Source: Sphaerochaetaceae bacterium
GTDB lineage: Bacteria > Spirochaetota > Spirochaetia > Sphaerochaetales > Sphaerochaetaceae
Direction of reading: 5' to 3'
DNA: 35,617 nt
NCBI GenBank assembly: GCA_028691695.1
Contig: JAQUYU010000004.1
Location: forward strand, 13,343 to 48,959
Notes under the pieces: generated by a model
What the model saw: only the letters and a program-made list of their open reading frames with translations
What the model was told of the DNA's origin: nothing
The model's database searches: none
Made by a program: the position numbers and the translations under genes
Shown here: positions 4,597 to 33,390 of the stretch, piece after piece
How the letters are laid out: every line of letters begins with the position of its first letter
Numbering within the stretch: the stretch's first letter is position 1

Positions 4597-6003
4597 TCAG
4601 TTCTTGAGCTTGCTCTTGAAATCGGAAAGCACTGATTCCTTCAATGAAGATTCCTTCTCTGAATACTCCTGATCGGTGAGATCCTCTGTAGCTGCTGTGC
4701 CTGACAGCACATCAGAAGCATTGCTCTGGCTGCTCATGCTCTGAGCAATCGTAGGCTCAACTGGTGCAGCAGTTGCCGGCTCATCAATAGTAGGAGTCGC
4801 TGTTGTTGCTGTTGCGGAAGGCTCTGCAGTCTTGACTGCAGTTTCTGAAGCTGCTTCTGTAGTCTTGGCCGTAACTTCTGAAGTTGATTCCGTGGTCTTG
4901 GCCGTAACTTCTGGAGTTGATTCCGTGGTCTTGGCCGTAACTTCTGGAGTTGATTCCGTAGTCTTGGCCGTAACTTCTGGAGTTGATACCGTAGTCTTTG
5001 CTGTATCTGCAGCAGAAGCGGCAGGAACTACAAGCGGCTCGATTGCATCGGCTATTTCCTGCTTGTGCTCTAGGATAAGCGGAACCACTGCATCGGCTAT
5101 TTCCTGCTTGCTCTCAAGAACCAGAGCAACCAGCTTTTGAGCTATCGCAGGATCGGATTCAAGGGCAGAAACCACTAGGCCTGAAATGAACTGACTATTA
5201 TTCTCTTCAAGAGCAGTCACTATCGCAGGGCCAAGTGTGCCGGCATTTGCAGTGATAATTGAAACAACGGCATCCGATAGCTCCTTGGAGCTGACAATGG
5301 TGGATATGATGCTTGTAACAAGCTCATCCTGATTGGCAGCCATCCAGTCGACCATTGCTTTCTGAAGCTGACTGGAATCCGAAACTGTCTTCAAGACAGC
5401 CGACTGAACCACAGGGGTGACCTGTGCAATGATCTCTGGAATGCTCTTGGATATCTGATTTGAAACAGTAGCAGACAGGCTGGAATTCACTGCATCTGTA
5501 ATCTGAGGCACAAGCGGCTTGATGTCGTCCATGGTCACAGAAGGCTTTTCCACCTTGGCAGCTATTGCGTCAGTATCGACCTTGGCAGCAACGGCGGATA
5601 CATCAATCTTGGAAGCAGCCTTTGAGGCGATGGCATCAGTATCAATCAAAGCGGCAGCATCTGAAGCAACTGCATCAGTATCAATCCTTGATGCAGCTTC
5701 AGAAGCAATTGAATCGATATCAATCTTTGATGCAGCTTCAGAAGCAATGGCCTCAGTATCAACCTCTGGAACGGAGGAGAGAGCAAGCTGCTTGGAAACT
5801 TCCTCAGAAATCAATGCCCTTATCTGGTCATCCGTTGCTGAAGGTGCAGAAGGTGCTGATTGCACCGCAACACCTGTCTTCTCTGAAATCTTCTTCTGAA
5901 CCTTCTCATTGTAACCAGGCTGTGTCACGACAATGATCGCCAGAAGGTACACCAGAACCACAATAAGAACAGCGAGCAATATTTTCGGACCTTTTCTAGC
6001 CAT
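4597..6003 (-). CDS. Membrane-anchored repeat protein of unknown function (single N-terminal TM, helical repeats, Thr/Glu-rich tandem repeats)
   Basis: MARKGPKILLAVLIVVLVYLLAIIVV N-terminal TM; in-frame repeats. Start at 6003 (8-bp overlap with coaE) preferred over the ORF start at 6093, which lies in coaE. Confidence 0.75.
   Translation of the reverse strand: MARKGPKILLAVLIVVLVYLLAIIVVTQPGYNEKVQKKISEKTGVAVQSAPSAPSATDDQIRALISEEVSKQLALSSVPEVDTEAIASEAASKIDIDSIASEAASRIDTDAVASDAAALIDTDAIASKAASKIDVSAVAAKVDTDAIAAKVEKPSVTMDDIKPLVPQITDAVNSSLSATVSNQISKSIPEIIAQVTPVVQSAVLKTVSDSSQLQKAMVDWMAANQDELVTSIISTIVSSKELSDAVVSIITANAGTLGPAIVTALEENNSQFISGLVVSALESDPAIAQKLVALVLESKQEIADAVVPLILEHKQEIADAIEPLVVPAASAADTAKTTVSTPEVTAKTTESTPEVTAKTTESTPEVTAKTTESTSEVTAKTTEAASETAVKTAEPSATATTATPTIDEPATAAPVEPTIAQSMSSQSNASDVLSGTAATEDLTDQEYSEKESSLKESVLSDFKSKLKN
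4826..4990 (-). repeat. 33-bp tandem repeat, 5 in-register units (EVTAKTTESTP)
   Basis: Units 4826-4858 (diverged), 4859-4891, 4892-4924, 4925-4957, 4958-4990; two units are identical (gtggtcttggccgtaacttctggagttgattcc on +). Confidence 0.9.
5551..5760 (-). repeat. Degenerate 39-bp (13 aa) tandem repeat, four units plus two 27-bp units (DTDAIASEAASKI / DTDAIAAKV)
   Basis: Translation DTEAIASEAASKI-DIDSIASEAASRI-DTDAVASDAAALI-DTDAIASKAASKI-DVSAVAAKV-DTDAIAAKV. Confidence 0.85.
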
Positions 6004-6607
6004 GTTTAACCTCAGTTTCCCTGCTTCTGAAAAGTTTATCACAAATCCTATTGATTTGTCGATGCATTTTATTGCAGTTATTGCCATTATCAACGACGTA
6101 AACGGGAATGCCCGGACAGAAACAGCGACTGTTTATATCTCTCTGGCTCATGCATCGCCTGATGTAAGAATCCTTTGAAGTCCCGTTTCTGAGATATGCC
6201 CTATGCCATCTGACAGAGAACGGGCATTTGACAAAGATCACTGCATTGCATAAGCGGTCAAGCTTCATTCTATGCAGGATGGCAGCATTGATAATGACCA
6301 CATCGCTGGTGCATTCCGAAACTGTTGCAATCACCTTCTCAACCATTTTTGGGTGGACGATCCGCTCAAGAGCATGGAGCTTGGCAGGGTCTGAGAATGC
6401 AATCCTTCCAACAGCCTTCCGGTCGACCTTGCCATCAGGAAGAATCACATCACTCCCGAATGCTCTTGAAACCTCAGAGGCAGCCTGATCGATTACATCA
6501 TGACCCACCTCATCGACATCAATCGACTGCCAGTGCTTTTCCTGTTCCAGGTAGCTTACAACATAGTTCTTTCCGCTGCAGCTCTTTCCCGCAACCCCGA
6601 TAATCAT
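5996..6607 (-). CDS. coaE: Dephospho-CoA kinase
   Basis: MIIGVAGKSCSGKNYVVSYL P-loop-like N-terminus, DVDEVGHDVI, RIVHPKMVEKV; starts directly after the polA stop. Confidence 0.8.
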   Translation of the reverse strand: MIIGVAGKSCSGKNYVVSYLEQEKHWQSIDVDEVGHDVIDQAASEVSRAFGSDVILPDGKVDRKAVGRIAFSDPAKLHALERIVHPKMVEKVIATVSECTSDVVIINAAILHRMKLDRLCNAVIFVKCPFSVRWHRAYLRNGTSKDSYIRRCMSQRDINSRCFCPGIPVYVVDNGNNCNKMHRQINRICDKLFRSRETEVKHG

Positions 6608-28556: not shown

Positions 28557-30791
28557 TCAGTCTTCCTTATCCTGCTTGAGCTTTATTGAAACATTCTTCT
28601 TCAGGCGAATCTTCACCGGAACAGGAGCGAGCTTGTGCTTGCGGATCTCGAAGCAGTAGTGAATCTTACGATTGCGAGAGAAATCATCACCTATCGTCTC
28701 CTGGCTTATATCCTTCACATCGAAGATCTCTGCAATGTATTCATCGAGCTGGAAACGGGTGTAGTTGGTCGAGAAGATCAAAAGCCCGTCATCTGCAAGG
28801 TGAGCCATGCAAGACTTGATAAGCCGGCTGTGGTCATACTGGACATCAAAGCTGTCACGGCTCTTGCTATTTGAGAACGTCGGCGGATCGCAGAAGATCA
28901 GGTCGAACCTGTCACGCGTGCCGTCAAGATATCGCATGCAGTCATCAAGGTAGAAGAAGTGGTTGAGACTCTCAAACCCATTGATCTGCATATTCTTCTG
29001 CGCCCAGTCAAGGTATGTTCCGCTGGCATCTACGCTTACGGTTGACAGTGCCCCGCCAGCAGCGGCGTAGACAGTTGCAGTAGCCGTGTAGCAGAAGAGA
29101 TTGAGGAATCTCTTTCCCTTGGCCAAACCCTCGATCTTCGCCCGCACCGGCCTGTGGTCAAGGAAAATCCCGGTATCCAGGTAGTCGGTGAAGTTCACCA
29201 TGAACCTGTGCCCGCCCTCCCTGACAATGAAGAACCTGCTGTCAGAGGCATTGAGCTTGCTGTACTGTCTGTTTCCCCTCTGGATGGACCGCTGCTTCAC
29301 GAAGATGCAGTCCATATCGATTCCTGTAACACGCTCGGTTGCAAGCACAAGCTCGTCAAGCCGACGCTGTGCATCATCAGGATCGATTGTCGAAGGAGGT
29401 GCATACTCTTGGAGGCTTATCCATTTGCCTTCGTAGATATCGATGGCAGCCGAATACTCTGGCATGTCCGCATCATAGAGGCGATAGCAGCTTACACCCT
29501 CTTTATCCATCAAAGGCTTCAGGGCCTCAAGATTCTTCTTAAGCCTGTTGGCCGCCATCTGGGCACCATCGGAAAGAGGAGCGGAAAGCCTCTCCTCTCG
29601 CTTGGCCTTGGCACGTTCGATCAGAGCATTGCGCTCATCGTCAGTGTAGATGTAGTAGTGAGCAAGCTGGCATTCCATTCCGCCGTTGTACAGCGAATTG
29701 GTCCGGTCAGGCTTCATGTCCACGTAGCCAAGGAGGCTGCTGTCCCCGCAGAGAATAGAAGCATTCCATCCTCTGAAGCAATCAGTGATCACCTTTCCTA
29801 TTCCTGTATACAGCTTCTGGATCTGGACATCCGAATCACCCATCCGTATCCCATACGGAGGATCGGTAACAATGCAGCCTTTGCTGTCAGTCACATCGGA
29901 AGGCTTGGTATCGAGAAAGTCGCGGCACTGGAAGTCAATCAAACCGTCCACTCCTGCCGCCTTGGCATTGGCTTTTGAAATTCTGATAGCCTCAGGATCG
30001 ATATCCCATCCAATAATCTTGCACTTTGGAACAACGGTGCTATCATCAGCCTCGCTGAATACTTCGTTCCAGACCTTCTCGTCATGGAATGGAAGCTTGT
30101 AGAAAGCAAAGCGGTACGGATCGACCAGCCCAGGCGCAGAATGGGAAGCCGTCATCGCTGCTTCGATGCACAGCGTTCCGCTTCCGCAGAAAGGGTCAAG
30201 GAAAGTGCACTGCTGCCCATCCTTGAACCACTGGCTCCTGCATACGACCGAAGAAGCAAGGAACTCAGAAAGGCAGGCTTCAGTCTGCTGCTTGCGGTAG
30301 CCTCGCTTGGCAAGCGAACGGCCGGAGAAATCAATATAGTAGGAAACGCTGTCTCCATCTATATGGAGAGCGAATGCGATATCAGGATCATCGACATCCA
30401 CCGAAGGCCGCTGGTCATCGAACTTGTCTCGCATCCTGTCAACGATTGCATCCTTGAGCCTGATTGAAACAAAGTGGGTGTTCATCAGCCAGTTACAGCC
30501 GGAGACTGTCTCAGTCACTGCAAAAGTAGTATCAGGAGTAAGGAAATTCTCCCATGGAAGCTCGACGCTGTGGTCATAGAACTCATCAATCGAGGAGATC
30601 TCCGCCTGATGGAAAAGCACCAGAACGCGTGTTGCGCATCTTGTCCACAGGCAGAACCTGTATCCGACTCTCAGATCGCCTTTGAAGTACACTCCTCCGG
30701 ATGTGACCTTCACATCCTCGGATCCTGCCTGACGTGCCTCCGTCTCGACCAGATCAGTCTGGTTCGCTGAAGTTGCTGCAAAATAAATCAT
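28557..30791 (-). CDS. rlmKL: Bifunctional 23S rRNA methyltransferase RlmK/L
   Basis: N-terminal THUMP/RlmL (DPFCGSGTLCIEAA, VTDPPYGIRMG) and C-terminal RlmK-type domain (FLNLFCYTATATVYAAAGGA, FCDPPTFSNS). Confidence 0.93.
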   Translation of the reverse strand: MIYFAATSANQTDLVETEARQAGSEDVKVTSGGVYFKGDLRVGYRFCLWTRCATRVLVLFHQAEISSIDEFYDHSVELPWENFLTPDTTFAVTETVSGCNWLMNTHFVSIRLKDAIVDRMRDKFDDQRPSVDVDDPDIAFALHIDGDSVSYYIDFSGRSLAKRGYRKQQTEACLSEFLASSVVCRSQWFKDGQQCTFLDPFCGSGTLCIEAAMTASHSAPGLVDPYRFAFYKLPFHDEKVWNEVFSEADDSTVVPKCKIIGWDIDPEAIRISKANAKAAGVDGLIDFQCRDFLDTKPSDVTDSKGCIVTDPPYGIRMGDSDVQIQKLYTGIGKVITDCFRGWNASILCGDSSLLGYVDMKPDRTNSLYNGGMECQLAHYYIYTDDERNALIERAKAKREERLSAPLSDGAQMAANRLKKNLEALKPLMDKEGVSCYRLYDADMPEYSAAIDIYEGKWISLQEYAPPSTIDPDDAQRRLDELVLATERVTGIDMDCIFVKQRSIQRGNRQYSKLNASDSRFFIVREGGHRFMVNFTDYLDTGIFLDHRPVRAKIEGLAKGKRFLNLFCYTATATVYAAAGGALSTVSVDASGTYLDWAQKNMQINGFESLNHFFYLDDCMRYLDGTRDRFDLIFCDPPTFSNSKSRDSFDVQYDHSRLIKSCMAHLADDGLLIFSTNYTRFQLDEYIAEIFDVKDISQETIGDDFSRNRKIHYCFEIRKHKLAPVPVKIRLKKNVSIKLKQDKED

Positions 30792-31711
30792 TTGTCCTCC
30801 CCGAAGATCTCTTCCTTTGAAAACTCATAATCAGTCCCGCAGTTGAGGCATGAAACAGTCACAGGGAATTTGTCATCCTTGAGAATGCCGTCCTTCTCAT
30901 CCTGTGGAAGGCTCCGCAGATGAGCAAGGAAATTCCCTCTCGTGCATGGGCAGGAGAACCCGACGGCAGCCTTTGAAAGGAACTGGGGCTTAAGATCAGA
31001 GAACACTTCATCCACAAAAAATTTCATGTCTTCCCCTTCGCTGATCTTCTTTCCGACATACGGAAGCTTTGCTGAAAGCTTCTCCATCTTGTCAAGGCTC
31101 TCTTCAGAGCAGCCAGGAAGAACCTGAACAAATAGACCGCCGGCACCAATCAAAGTGCCTTTCTTGTCAAACTTCAGGCTTAGGTCGAATATAGAAGGAG
31201 TCTGCTCGCTCTGCTGGTAGTACAGAGCAAGATCCTTTGCAAGATCGCCGTACTCCATCATCACATTGCCGCAGAACGGCTCCTTGGATCCTTCGATGAT
31301 CTTCGTGATGCTCAAAAAACCAGGCCCGTAGAGAAGGTTAAGGTCCTTGCCCTCCATCGGCTTGTCCAATGGAATCGGAACCTGCTGAAGATACCCTCTT
31401 ACTGCTCCGCAAGCCCAGGCTTCAACGCTGAAGCCCTTTATCGGGCCGCCGCACTGGACTGTGAGAACAATTCTGTCGTTTCCCTTGACCTCGCCAGCAA
31501 GAAGCCCGCCGGCAACATAGGCCTGCCCGAGAACCCAGGTTTCAAGAAAGCCCAGGCCGAAGTTGGCCCTCATCTGATTCACCATCGCAGTGCATTGCAT
31601 TGCAGTCAACCGGAATTTCCCATCATCTAGCGTGTAGATGTAACGGGAATCTTCTGGCAGCTTGGAAAGCTGTTCCAGCACTGCAGCATCATCTATTTTC
31701 TTTTTTATCAT
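30788..31711 (-). CDS. hslO: Redox-regulated chaperone Hsp33
   Basis: GRFxxT-type N-terminus, C-terminal zinc/redox Cys (CPC ... CLNC). ATG at 31711 (MIKKKIDD) chosen; ORF start at 31750 is a TTG. Confidence 0.92.
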   Translation of the reverse strand: MIKKKIDDAAVLEQLSKLPEDSRYIYTLDDGKFRLTAMQCTAMVNQMRANFGLGFLETWVLGQAYVAGGLLAGEVKGNDRIVLTVQCGGPIKGFSVEAWACGAVRGYLQQVPIPLDKPMEGKDLNLLYGPGFLSITKIIEGSKEPFCGNVMMEYGDLAKDLALYYQQSEQTPSIFDLSLKFDKKGTLIGAGGLFVQVLPGCSEESLDKMEKLSAKLPYVGKKISEGEDMKFFVDEVFSDLKPQFLSKAAVGFSCPCTRGNFLAHLRSLPQDEKDGILKDDKFPVTVSCLNCGTDYEFSKEEIFGEDK

Positions 31712-31754
31712 AACTCTGGTAAATGTAGTGGAATAAAGCCTTTTATTCAATCGC

Positions 31755-32510
31755 TTACTGGACTACAACATCGCTCAGAACAGCCACAAGGCTCTGGTAT
31801 TCTCCATCAATCGCCGAAATATCGGCTTCAAGAAGACGGTCAGGATCCATTTCATACCATTTCACGTCATAGCCTGCATTCAATGTCAGAAGATAGAAGA
31901 ACAGCCTTGCCGTCCGTCCGTTGCCATCGGCAAACGGATGAAGCGCTTCGACTTCTCCCATGTAGAATGCAAGGTCGTTGATGAACTGATCACGTTCCCT
32001 GCCCTTGAGGTACCGGTCCGAAAGAAGCTTAGAGAATATGCTCTGCGACATCTGCCCGATGTATTGAGGCTTGCAGAACGAAGTCCGCTTTGAAGCATTG
32101 AACGTCCTGACCTCTCCTGCCGACGGATAAAGATCCCCGAACAGGGTTGAATGTATTTCCTTGAGGGTCTCGAAGTCGAACTTCAACGGAAGCGGTCTCA
32201 TGAGAATCTCCGCAAAGCGGAAAGGCACTATCTGGTTTTCCAGCATGCGGAGCCGGTCACGCTCCTGGATGTTGAAGTAATTAACCAGAGTCTTGGTGGA
32301 CGGATAACGACCGTTCTCCTCTTCGGAGGGAATGAAGTTATCATCAAGCGATGACTCCCTCACAATGGTCTCCACCGCATCGTCTGCGGAAAGATCACCG
32401 TCAAGCACAGAGCATATCTGCGACTCCTGCTCGTCTTCAAGCGAAGAGCCTTCAACCTCCAAAGAAAACCTTATCAAGTCGATGCAAGCCTGCATCTGGC
32501 CGCTTTTCAC
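31755..32510 (-). CDS. Fic-family AMP transferase with N-terminal VbhA-like antitoxin segment
   Basis: Fic motif HPFADGNGRTAR; N-terminal SLEVEG inhibitory motif. GTG at 32510 preceded by GGGGG RBS. Confidence 0.88.
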   Translation of the reverse strand: MKSGQMQACIDLIRFSLEVEGSSLEDEQESQICSVLDGDLSADDAVETIVRESSLDDNFIPSEEENGRYPSTKTLVNYFNIQERDRLRMLENQIVPFRFAEILMRPLPLKFDFETLKEIHSTLFGDLYPSAGEVRTFNASKRTSFCKPQYIGQMSQSIFSKLLSDRYLKGRERDQFINDLAFYMGEVEALHPFADGNGRTARLFFYLLTLNAGYDVKWYEMDPDRLLEADISAIDGEYQSLVAVLSDVVVQ

Positions 32511-32520
32511 AACAATCCCC

Positions 32521-33390
32521 CTAGAATTTATAGCTGAATGACAAACCGGCAGAGAACGTCTGCTCGGTAGTAAGAACATGGAAAAGTCCTTCTATTTCAG
32601 CCATGAAATGCTTTCCCATCATAAAGCCAATGTAAGCCCCTGCGCTGCCGCCGATCCCGAACTTGAACGAGCCTGTCTCAAGATTCCCTGCCATTTCGAT
32701 TCCGACAGGAATTCCTAAATACAGCTTATCGCTTAGCATCATAGACCAGACGCTCAGAGCTGAGACGTTGATTGAATCAAGCCTTGCAGGACTGCGCGGA
32801 TAGAAATCGGCAATCGCATTGAAACGAAGCCCCAGATTGAAGATCGTTCCGAACTTCCAAAGATTGGGCATTCCGAACACAGCGCCGGCTTCGAAAGTCT
32901 TGCCGGTATCTGAAGTCAGGTCGCTCTTGAGAAGAAGCCTCAGCCCAATGTCATATTTAGGAACATATTCTGCAATAACGGGAGTCTCTGCTTCCTCTAC
33001 TGGAGTAGATTCAACAACTGCTTCCTGTGCTGGAGATTCCTCTACTGCCTGCTCTGCTACAATCTCCTGCGCCGAAACAGAAACTTCGGAAACAAGAGAA
33101 GAAGACTCGCTCCAGTTGATGCCATCGTAGGATTGCTGGACATACAGCGTATGAGGAACACTGAGATCAATGCTATCGAAAGCGGCGGATGTTTCGTAAT
33201 ATTCGCACTCGGTCCAAAGCCCTTCAGTCTGCGCATCAAGCTGATAGCGGAACCTTGTCACATCAAAGTCATCCCAGTCCCACAGAAAGGTAAGTACCTG
33301 GCCTCCTGCAAAAAGAGACAGGCAAGCGACCAGCAAAGCTAAAGTGCAAAGAATACGTTTCAATTCAGAACCTCTTTCCTTCCCCCGCAA
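32521..33390 (-). CDS. Secreted protein: N-terminal beta-sandwich (FN3/Y_Y_Y-like), Glu/Ala-rich linker, C-terminal outer-membrane barrel-like domain
   Basis: Signal peptide; N-terminal domain similar to the neighbouring gene; C-terminal alternating beta pattern ending FSAGLSFSYKF. Confidence 0.7.
   Translation of the reverse strand: MRGKERGSELKRILCTLALLVACLSLFAGGQVLTFLWDWDDFDVTRFRYQLDAQTEGLWTECEYYETSAAFDSIDLSVPHTLYVQQSYDGINWSESSSLVSEVSVSAQEIVAEQAVEESPAQEAVVESTPVEEAETPVIAEYVPKYDIGLRLLLKSDLTSDTGKTFEAGAVFGMPNLWKFGTIFNLGLRFNAIADFYPRSPARLDSINVSALSVWSMMLSDKLYLGIPVGIEMAGNLETGSFKFGIGGSAGAYIGFMMGKHFMAEIEGLFHVLTTEQTFSAGLSFSYKF

Follow-up and report, generated by a model that had tools for sequence, protein, structure and literature searches.

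Class I Fic systems, such as the VbhA/VbhT, EcFicA/EcFicT and AntF/Fic-1 pairs, occur in a two-gene FicTA form, in which a three-helix antitoxin with an inhibitory glutamate is encoded directly upstream of the Fic enzyme. In the class II proteins SoFic, FICD/HYPE and Fic-2, the inhibitory helix is located N-terminal to the core in the same chain. According to the classes of Engel, an inhibitory helix at the N-terminus of the same chain is said to mark class II and not class I. In addition, antitoxin sequences fused to the N-terminus of a Fic domain are already known from Bartonella, where Bep3/1, Bep3/2 and Bep4 carry an N-terminally fused antitoxin copy before the Fic domain (PMC8401265), and a fusion as such is not unprecedented. 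No paper on the fused Fic family described below was found in the literature searched.

The window, which is the whole stretch of 35,617 nucleotides analysed here, carries a gene for a 28 kDa protein that is best read as a single-chain FicA-FicT, i.e., a FicT-type enzyme kept inactive by an antitoxin-like domain within its own chain (probability roughly 0.78). Its features are collected in Table 1. The GTG start is well supported because the orthologues begin at the same place in the alignment, with a shared MKSGR/MKSSQ opening, and the stop codon of the preceding gene overlaps the Shine-Dalgarno-like sequence. Between the N-terminal domain and the Fic core lies a linker of about 12-15 residues.

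Table 1. Coordinates of the fused Fic gene, its parts and its neighbours in the window
Feature	Position	Strand	Details	Basis
Fused antitoxin-like/Fic gene	31755..32510	-	251 aa; GTG start at 32510, stop codon 31755-31757	ORF and translation
Shine-Dalgarno-like AGGGGG	32518..32523	-	upstream of the GTG start	sequence read
N-terminal VbhA/FicA-like domain	32340..32510	-	residues 1-57	HHalign, hmmsearch, AlphaFold secondary structure
Inhibitory motif SLEVEG	32448..32465	-	residues 16-21	translation
FicT-type Fic core	31758..32306	-	residues 69-251	PF02661, NCBIfam VbhT model, PDB matches, Foldseek
Fic motif HPFADGNGRTAR	31905..31940	-	residues 191-202; H191 catalytic His, R202 the R2 Arg	translation
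Upstream neighbour, outer-membrane-like protein	32521..33390	-	ends directly before the Fic gene	ORF, synteny
Downstream neighbour, Hsp33/HslO chaperone	30788..31750	-	NF001033 at 1.6e-52, below the curated cut-off	ORF

The Fic core is, as far as sequence and fold matches go, of the VbhT/FicT type. PF02661 matches the window protein at 8e-16 (59 bits; cut-off 24), while the NCBIfam VbhT model covers residues 71-246 at 4.5e-36, a match below its curated cut-off. The motif HxFx(D/E)GNGRxxR is present as HPFADGNGRTAR (H191-R202), and the claim of the sequence-only reading that the Fic motif is intact therefore holds. By sequence, the nearest solved relatives of the core in the PDB are Fic-1 (the best match, from the Fic-1-AntF pair), VbhT and EcFicT, and a Foldseek search against the PDB placed VbhT (3shg/3zc7) at the top, followed by Beps, EcFicT and Fic-1.

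The sequence-only reading also held that the N-terminal stretch aligns without gaps to VbhA, with the inhibitory motif and a glycine 17 residues later coinciding. Both elements are present in the window protein, as SLEVEG, which agrees with the pattern (S/T)xxxE(G/N), and as G38, which follows G21 by 17 residues. The present alignment was made with real antitoxin sequences rather than with that VbhA sequence, and for 11 of 12 real stand-alone antitoxins it has no gap between EG and the Gly. The gap-free alignment thus holds, but Gly occupies position 38 in only 27 of 56 distinct orthologues and is not conserved in the family.

Searched as a single sequence, the N-terminal stretch returned nothing of note from Pfam, NCBIfam and the PDB, and neither residues 1-59 nor the whole window protein matched the VbhA family PF18495 at E<=1 in Pfam and NCBIfam. 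Pairwise BLAST between the N-terminal domain and some antitoxins was weak as well (E 0.01). These searches speak for an unrelated helical extension in which the SxxxEG string arose by chance, a reading that the family-level profiles make very improbable. The PF18495 model is narrow, because a real stand-alone antitoxin from the same class (L188) also escapes it; even so, it is matched by four of 39 orthologues (best E 0.008) and is the second commonest Pfam family among them after Fic. For the comparison, stand-alone antitoxins encoded directly upstream of FicT genes were taken from plasmid, viral and genome loci. A profile of 39 N-terminal domains aligned by HHalign to 12 antitoxins over 48 columns with Prob 96.9, P 1.8e-10 and a score of 48.4, against a best score of 18.8 among 200 column shuffles of the N-domain profile and 10.7 for the reversed profile. 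With residues 16-21 masked, the score was still 36.4 (P 1.4e-7), and when each antitoxin was left out in turn, P stayed at about 5e-9 or better. Since the comparison antitoxins had mostly been chosen with a motif filter, an unfiltered hmmsearch was added, in which the N-domain profile was run against all 2,339 six-frame ORFs of 40-200 residues from loci that carry the two-gene FicT form. Each of the 12 best-ranked ORFs was the small reading frame immediately preceding a FicT gene (best 6e-8). Moreover, the solved structures related to the core belong to exactly those enzymes that such antitoxins control. Because the profile-profile comparison with its controls and the unfiltered search agree, the homology of the N-terminal domain to VbhA/FicA antitoxins can be taken as established by profile at the family level, and a chance string on an unrelated extension is ruled against by the HHalign P value, the shuffles and the hmmsearch. 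The profile search of residues 1-60 against VbhA, proposed as a check in the sequence-only reading, thus failed for the single sequence (E<=1) and succeeded with family-level profiles.

The predicted structure is consistent with this homology. In VbhA and BiaA, the inhibitory motif is located at the end of helix 1 (PMC5033356, PMC8401265). The AlphaFold model, built from an alignment (pLDDT 93.9, pTM 0.92), has N-domain helices at residues 3-19, 26-36 and 42-52, with E20-G21 directly after helix 3-19, i.e., a predicted three-helix fold with the motif at the C-terminal end of helix 1. E20 is presumed to be the inhibitory glutamate. The high pTM argues for a fixed, though unspecified, position of the modelled N-terminal domain relative to the core.

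The antitoxin-like domain and the core share one continuous frame in the window and in the orthologues, rather than the helix being on a separate protein as in class I, and the motif (residues 16-21) precedes a Fic core that begins at about residue 69 of the same chain. As judged from this domain order, the architecture is that of class II with an antitoxin-like αinh domain, while the parts are those of class I. The sequence-only reading had described a single-chain form of the two-gene class I system: its single-chain VbhA/VbhT form is borne out by the homology and by a two-gene form in related spirochaetes, but the class I label is not, given the architecture.

Compared with the class I pairs, the window protein appears to share a core of the same group and a homologous three-helix antitoxin with an inhibitory glutamate, but it is one polypeptide, encoded by a chromosomal, single-copy gene that is vertically inherited in one family, and at 251 aa it lacks a BID domain or any other secretion domain. 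The three Beps, which are compared here by their literature description, likewise have an antitoxin sequence fused N-terminal to the Fic domain; they are secretion-system effectors of another phylum, whereas the window protein is too short to hold a BID domain, and its gene has a conserved chromosomal neighbourhood. As in SoFic, FICD/HYPE and Fic-2, the inhibitory helix precedes the core within one polypeptide. However, its core matches FicT enzymes far better than SoFic or FICD, its inhibitory domain is recognisably VbhA-like, and neither a winged helix nor a TPR is present.

Other spirochaetes encode VbhA-like/Fic/winged-helix proteins of about 360-417 aa (L044, L045, L047 and L050), in which an N-terminal VbhA-like domain (PF18495 E 6.8e-5 to 0.018) and a Fic domain are also joined in one chain. 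Unlike the window protein, these have Asp as the inhibitory residue (VDG), a Fic motif HPFxEGNTRTTA without R2 and a C-terminal winged helix, and their N-terminal domains are only distantly similar to those of the window family (HHalign Prob 12.6). Such winged-helix fusions were also seen in L048, L052 and L060 (444 aa in L060), from other spirochaete families.

In wider searches, PF18495 had only three matches over its cut-off across 296 genomes of the phylum, and most of the matches below the cut-off are probably due to chance, because 11 of 14 control genomes also give such signals. A plasmid search with the Paracoccus VbhA found only itself, and no match among phage and viral records covered the N-domain motif. 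A Mycobacterium gordonae plasmid match that at first sight spanned residues 3-250 falls into two segments, and the only gene annotated under them is 195 bases long, which leaves a fusion there unsupported. As a separate observation, the genome of the window encodes another FicT-like protein (L112, G000:C139), which, like its counterpart in a relative (L102), is about 287 aa long and has an N-terminal extension. The Fic motif of L112 is canonical, that of L102 has GNCR, and the extension of G000:C139 reached only Prob 5 in HHalign against the antitoxins.

In the same class but outside the family, FicT-type matches begin at about residue 60-70, mostly in frames of about 200 residues, which corresponds to the two-gene form, and this form, with an antitoxin directly upstream of FicT, occurs in related spirochaetes. 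In four of these genomes (G350, G593, G601 and G603), the antitoxin ORF runs up to the FicT frame or slightly into it and carries motifs such as SMKMED; such a two-gene layout is a simple starting point for a fusion. The stand-alone antitoxins of two-gene FicTA systems in L187-L190 have SMKMED or TMAMED, with E-D replacing the published E(G/N). In a tree with outgroups, the cores of the fused proteins group in a single clade (95/98; recovered in 96% of bootstrap trees) inside the FicT radiation, with an open backbone and very long-branched outgroups; a midpoint-rooted tree, whose members include one very long degenerate row, shows the fused clade less clearly. The distribution favours fusion from a two-gene pair, while the tree backbone does not settle fusion versus fission.

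The fused gene is widespread in the Sphaerochaetaceae-type family, with one orthologue each in 95 of 139 genomes at E<1e-40. In 94 of them the frame is open over both domains, and the one remaining copy lies at a contig edge with its N-terminal domain uncovered. Among the 56 distinct orthologues, F15, H191, G196, N197 and R202 are invariant, and position 20 is always acidic (E in 46, D in 10), its acidity being the most constant part of the inhibitory motif. Position 21 is G in 53 of the 56 and D or E in the other three, and position 16 is S/T in only 25. For pairs with measurable dS, dN/dS was about 0.03-0.37 in the N-terminal domain and 0.01-0.10 in the core, and both domains are under purifying selection. 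In the Fic-1-AntF pair, the serine of the antitoxin matters for binding and the glutamate for catalysis (PMC13327609); by analogy, a relaxed serine together with a kept acid would be what tethering of the antitoxin is expected to bring.

Both motifs vary in parts of the family. One fused lineage has the Fic motif form HPFxDGNTR; in one lineage of fused orthologues (L088-L095 and L098), the motif reads HPFLDGNTRTMR, and D or E replaces G21 in L091, L094 and L095. In another fused lineage (e.g., L032, L082 and L087), Asp replaces the inhibitory Glu, and in a few orthologues N, S or T stands in place of the D/E of the Fic motif. Given such altered motifs, not all members need be AMPylators. In G082 and G083 (L104 and L105), the locus is conserved and the frame is open, while the inhibitory motif is lost and so is the Fic motif, R2 included (HPFARGNRM), and this joint loss would fit a functional link between the two motifs. 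The motif-less copies in these two genomes, together with the altered Fic motif of several lineages, might also suggest a decaying toxin-antitoxin remnant that a frameshift or the loss of a stop codon had joined and that is now drifting. However, 94 genomes with an open frame across both domains (and one more copy at a contig edge), dN/dS far below 1 in both domains, the invariance of F15, H191, N197 and R202 in 56 orthologues and a conserved gene neighbourhood make general decay highly unlikely, and for the lineage of the window it is refuted by purifying selection and intact frames.

In most genera, outer-membrane-like genes are followed by the Fic gene on the same strand, with yitT, hslO and rlmKL often near, while in the genus of the window the Fic gene lies between an outer-membrane-like gene and hslO, all on one strand. 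Related genes thus precede the Fic gene across most of the family; the upstream neighbour in the window had no NCBIfam match, and the longest hslO ORF starts 4 nt past the Fic stop. No small antitoxin gene is present directly before the Fic gene, this position being taken by the outer-membrane-like gene. A consensus promoter was looked for between the Fic gene and its upstream neighbour and not found, which is uninformative. The context is that of a resident chromosomal gene rather than a mobile module, and the family keeps the fused gene as a vertically inherited chromosomal gene, not as a mobile toxin-antitoxin pair. Elsewhere in the window, the ORF at 4597-6093 (minus strand) encodes a low-complexity, imperfectly repeated protein (IDTDAIASEAAS..., TPEVTAKTTES...).

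By analogy with VbhTA, EcFicTA and Fic-1-AntF, from which docking, autoinhibition and target are drawn, the first helix of the three-helix VbhA-like domain, which is inhibitory and carries SLEVEG, would dock on the FicT-type core, and E20 would pair with R202 (R2), keeping bound ATP non-productive, so that the enzyme would be inactive from its synthesis on and need no separate protein to restrain it. Displacement of the helix may then lead to AMPylation of a partner, by analogy GyrB/ParE, while with the inhibitory helix in place, removal of AMP may be possible. An autoinhibited AMPylator, as proposed in the sequence-only reading, is plausible on this basis.

The chief rival, which is compatible with autoinhibition, would make the tethered form a deAMPylase, as is the Fic-1-AntF complex, whose deAMPylase activity needs AntF Glu28 (PMC13327609). 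Among PDB sequences the core matches Fic-1 best, position 20 is acidic in all 56 orthologues, another FicT-like enzyme of the same genome (G000:C139) has a canonical motif, and GyrB of this genome keeps the target tyrosine segment NAYKVSGGLHG. However, the intact HPFADGNGRTAR fits AMPylation as well, the lineages that have E20D or DGNTR are difficult to interpret, and a target shared with the other Fic enzymes of the genome is an assumption, leaving deAMPylation by the tethered form a possible but unlikely account. Slightly less probable still, and rather speculative, is a broader proposal for the single-chain FicA-FicT, according to which the family-wide, vertically inherited protein is no longer a toxin-antitoxin system and might reversibly switch a housekeeping target (DNA gyrase or topoisomerase IV) by AMPylation and deAMPylation, with the tethered glutamate taking part in catalysis.

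Since fused and two-gene forms occur within one class, the effect of tethering (relaxed serine, kept acidic residue) is directly comparable, and assays should be simpler with a single 28-kDa protein than with a complex of two. Finally, because a whole bacterial family keeps this single chromosomal gene, the fused protein suggests a tamed toxin-antitoxin pair that was turned into a self-regulated enzyme.
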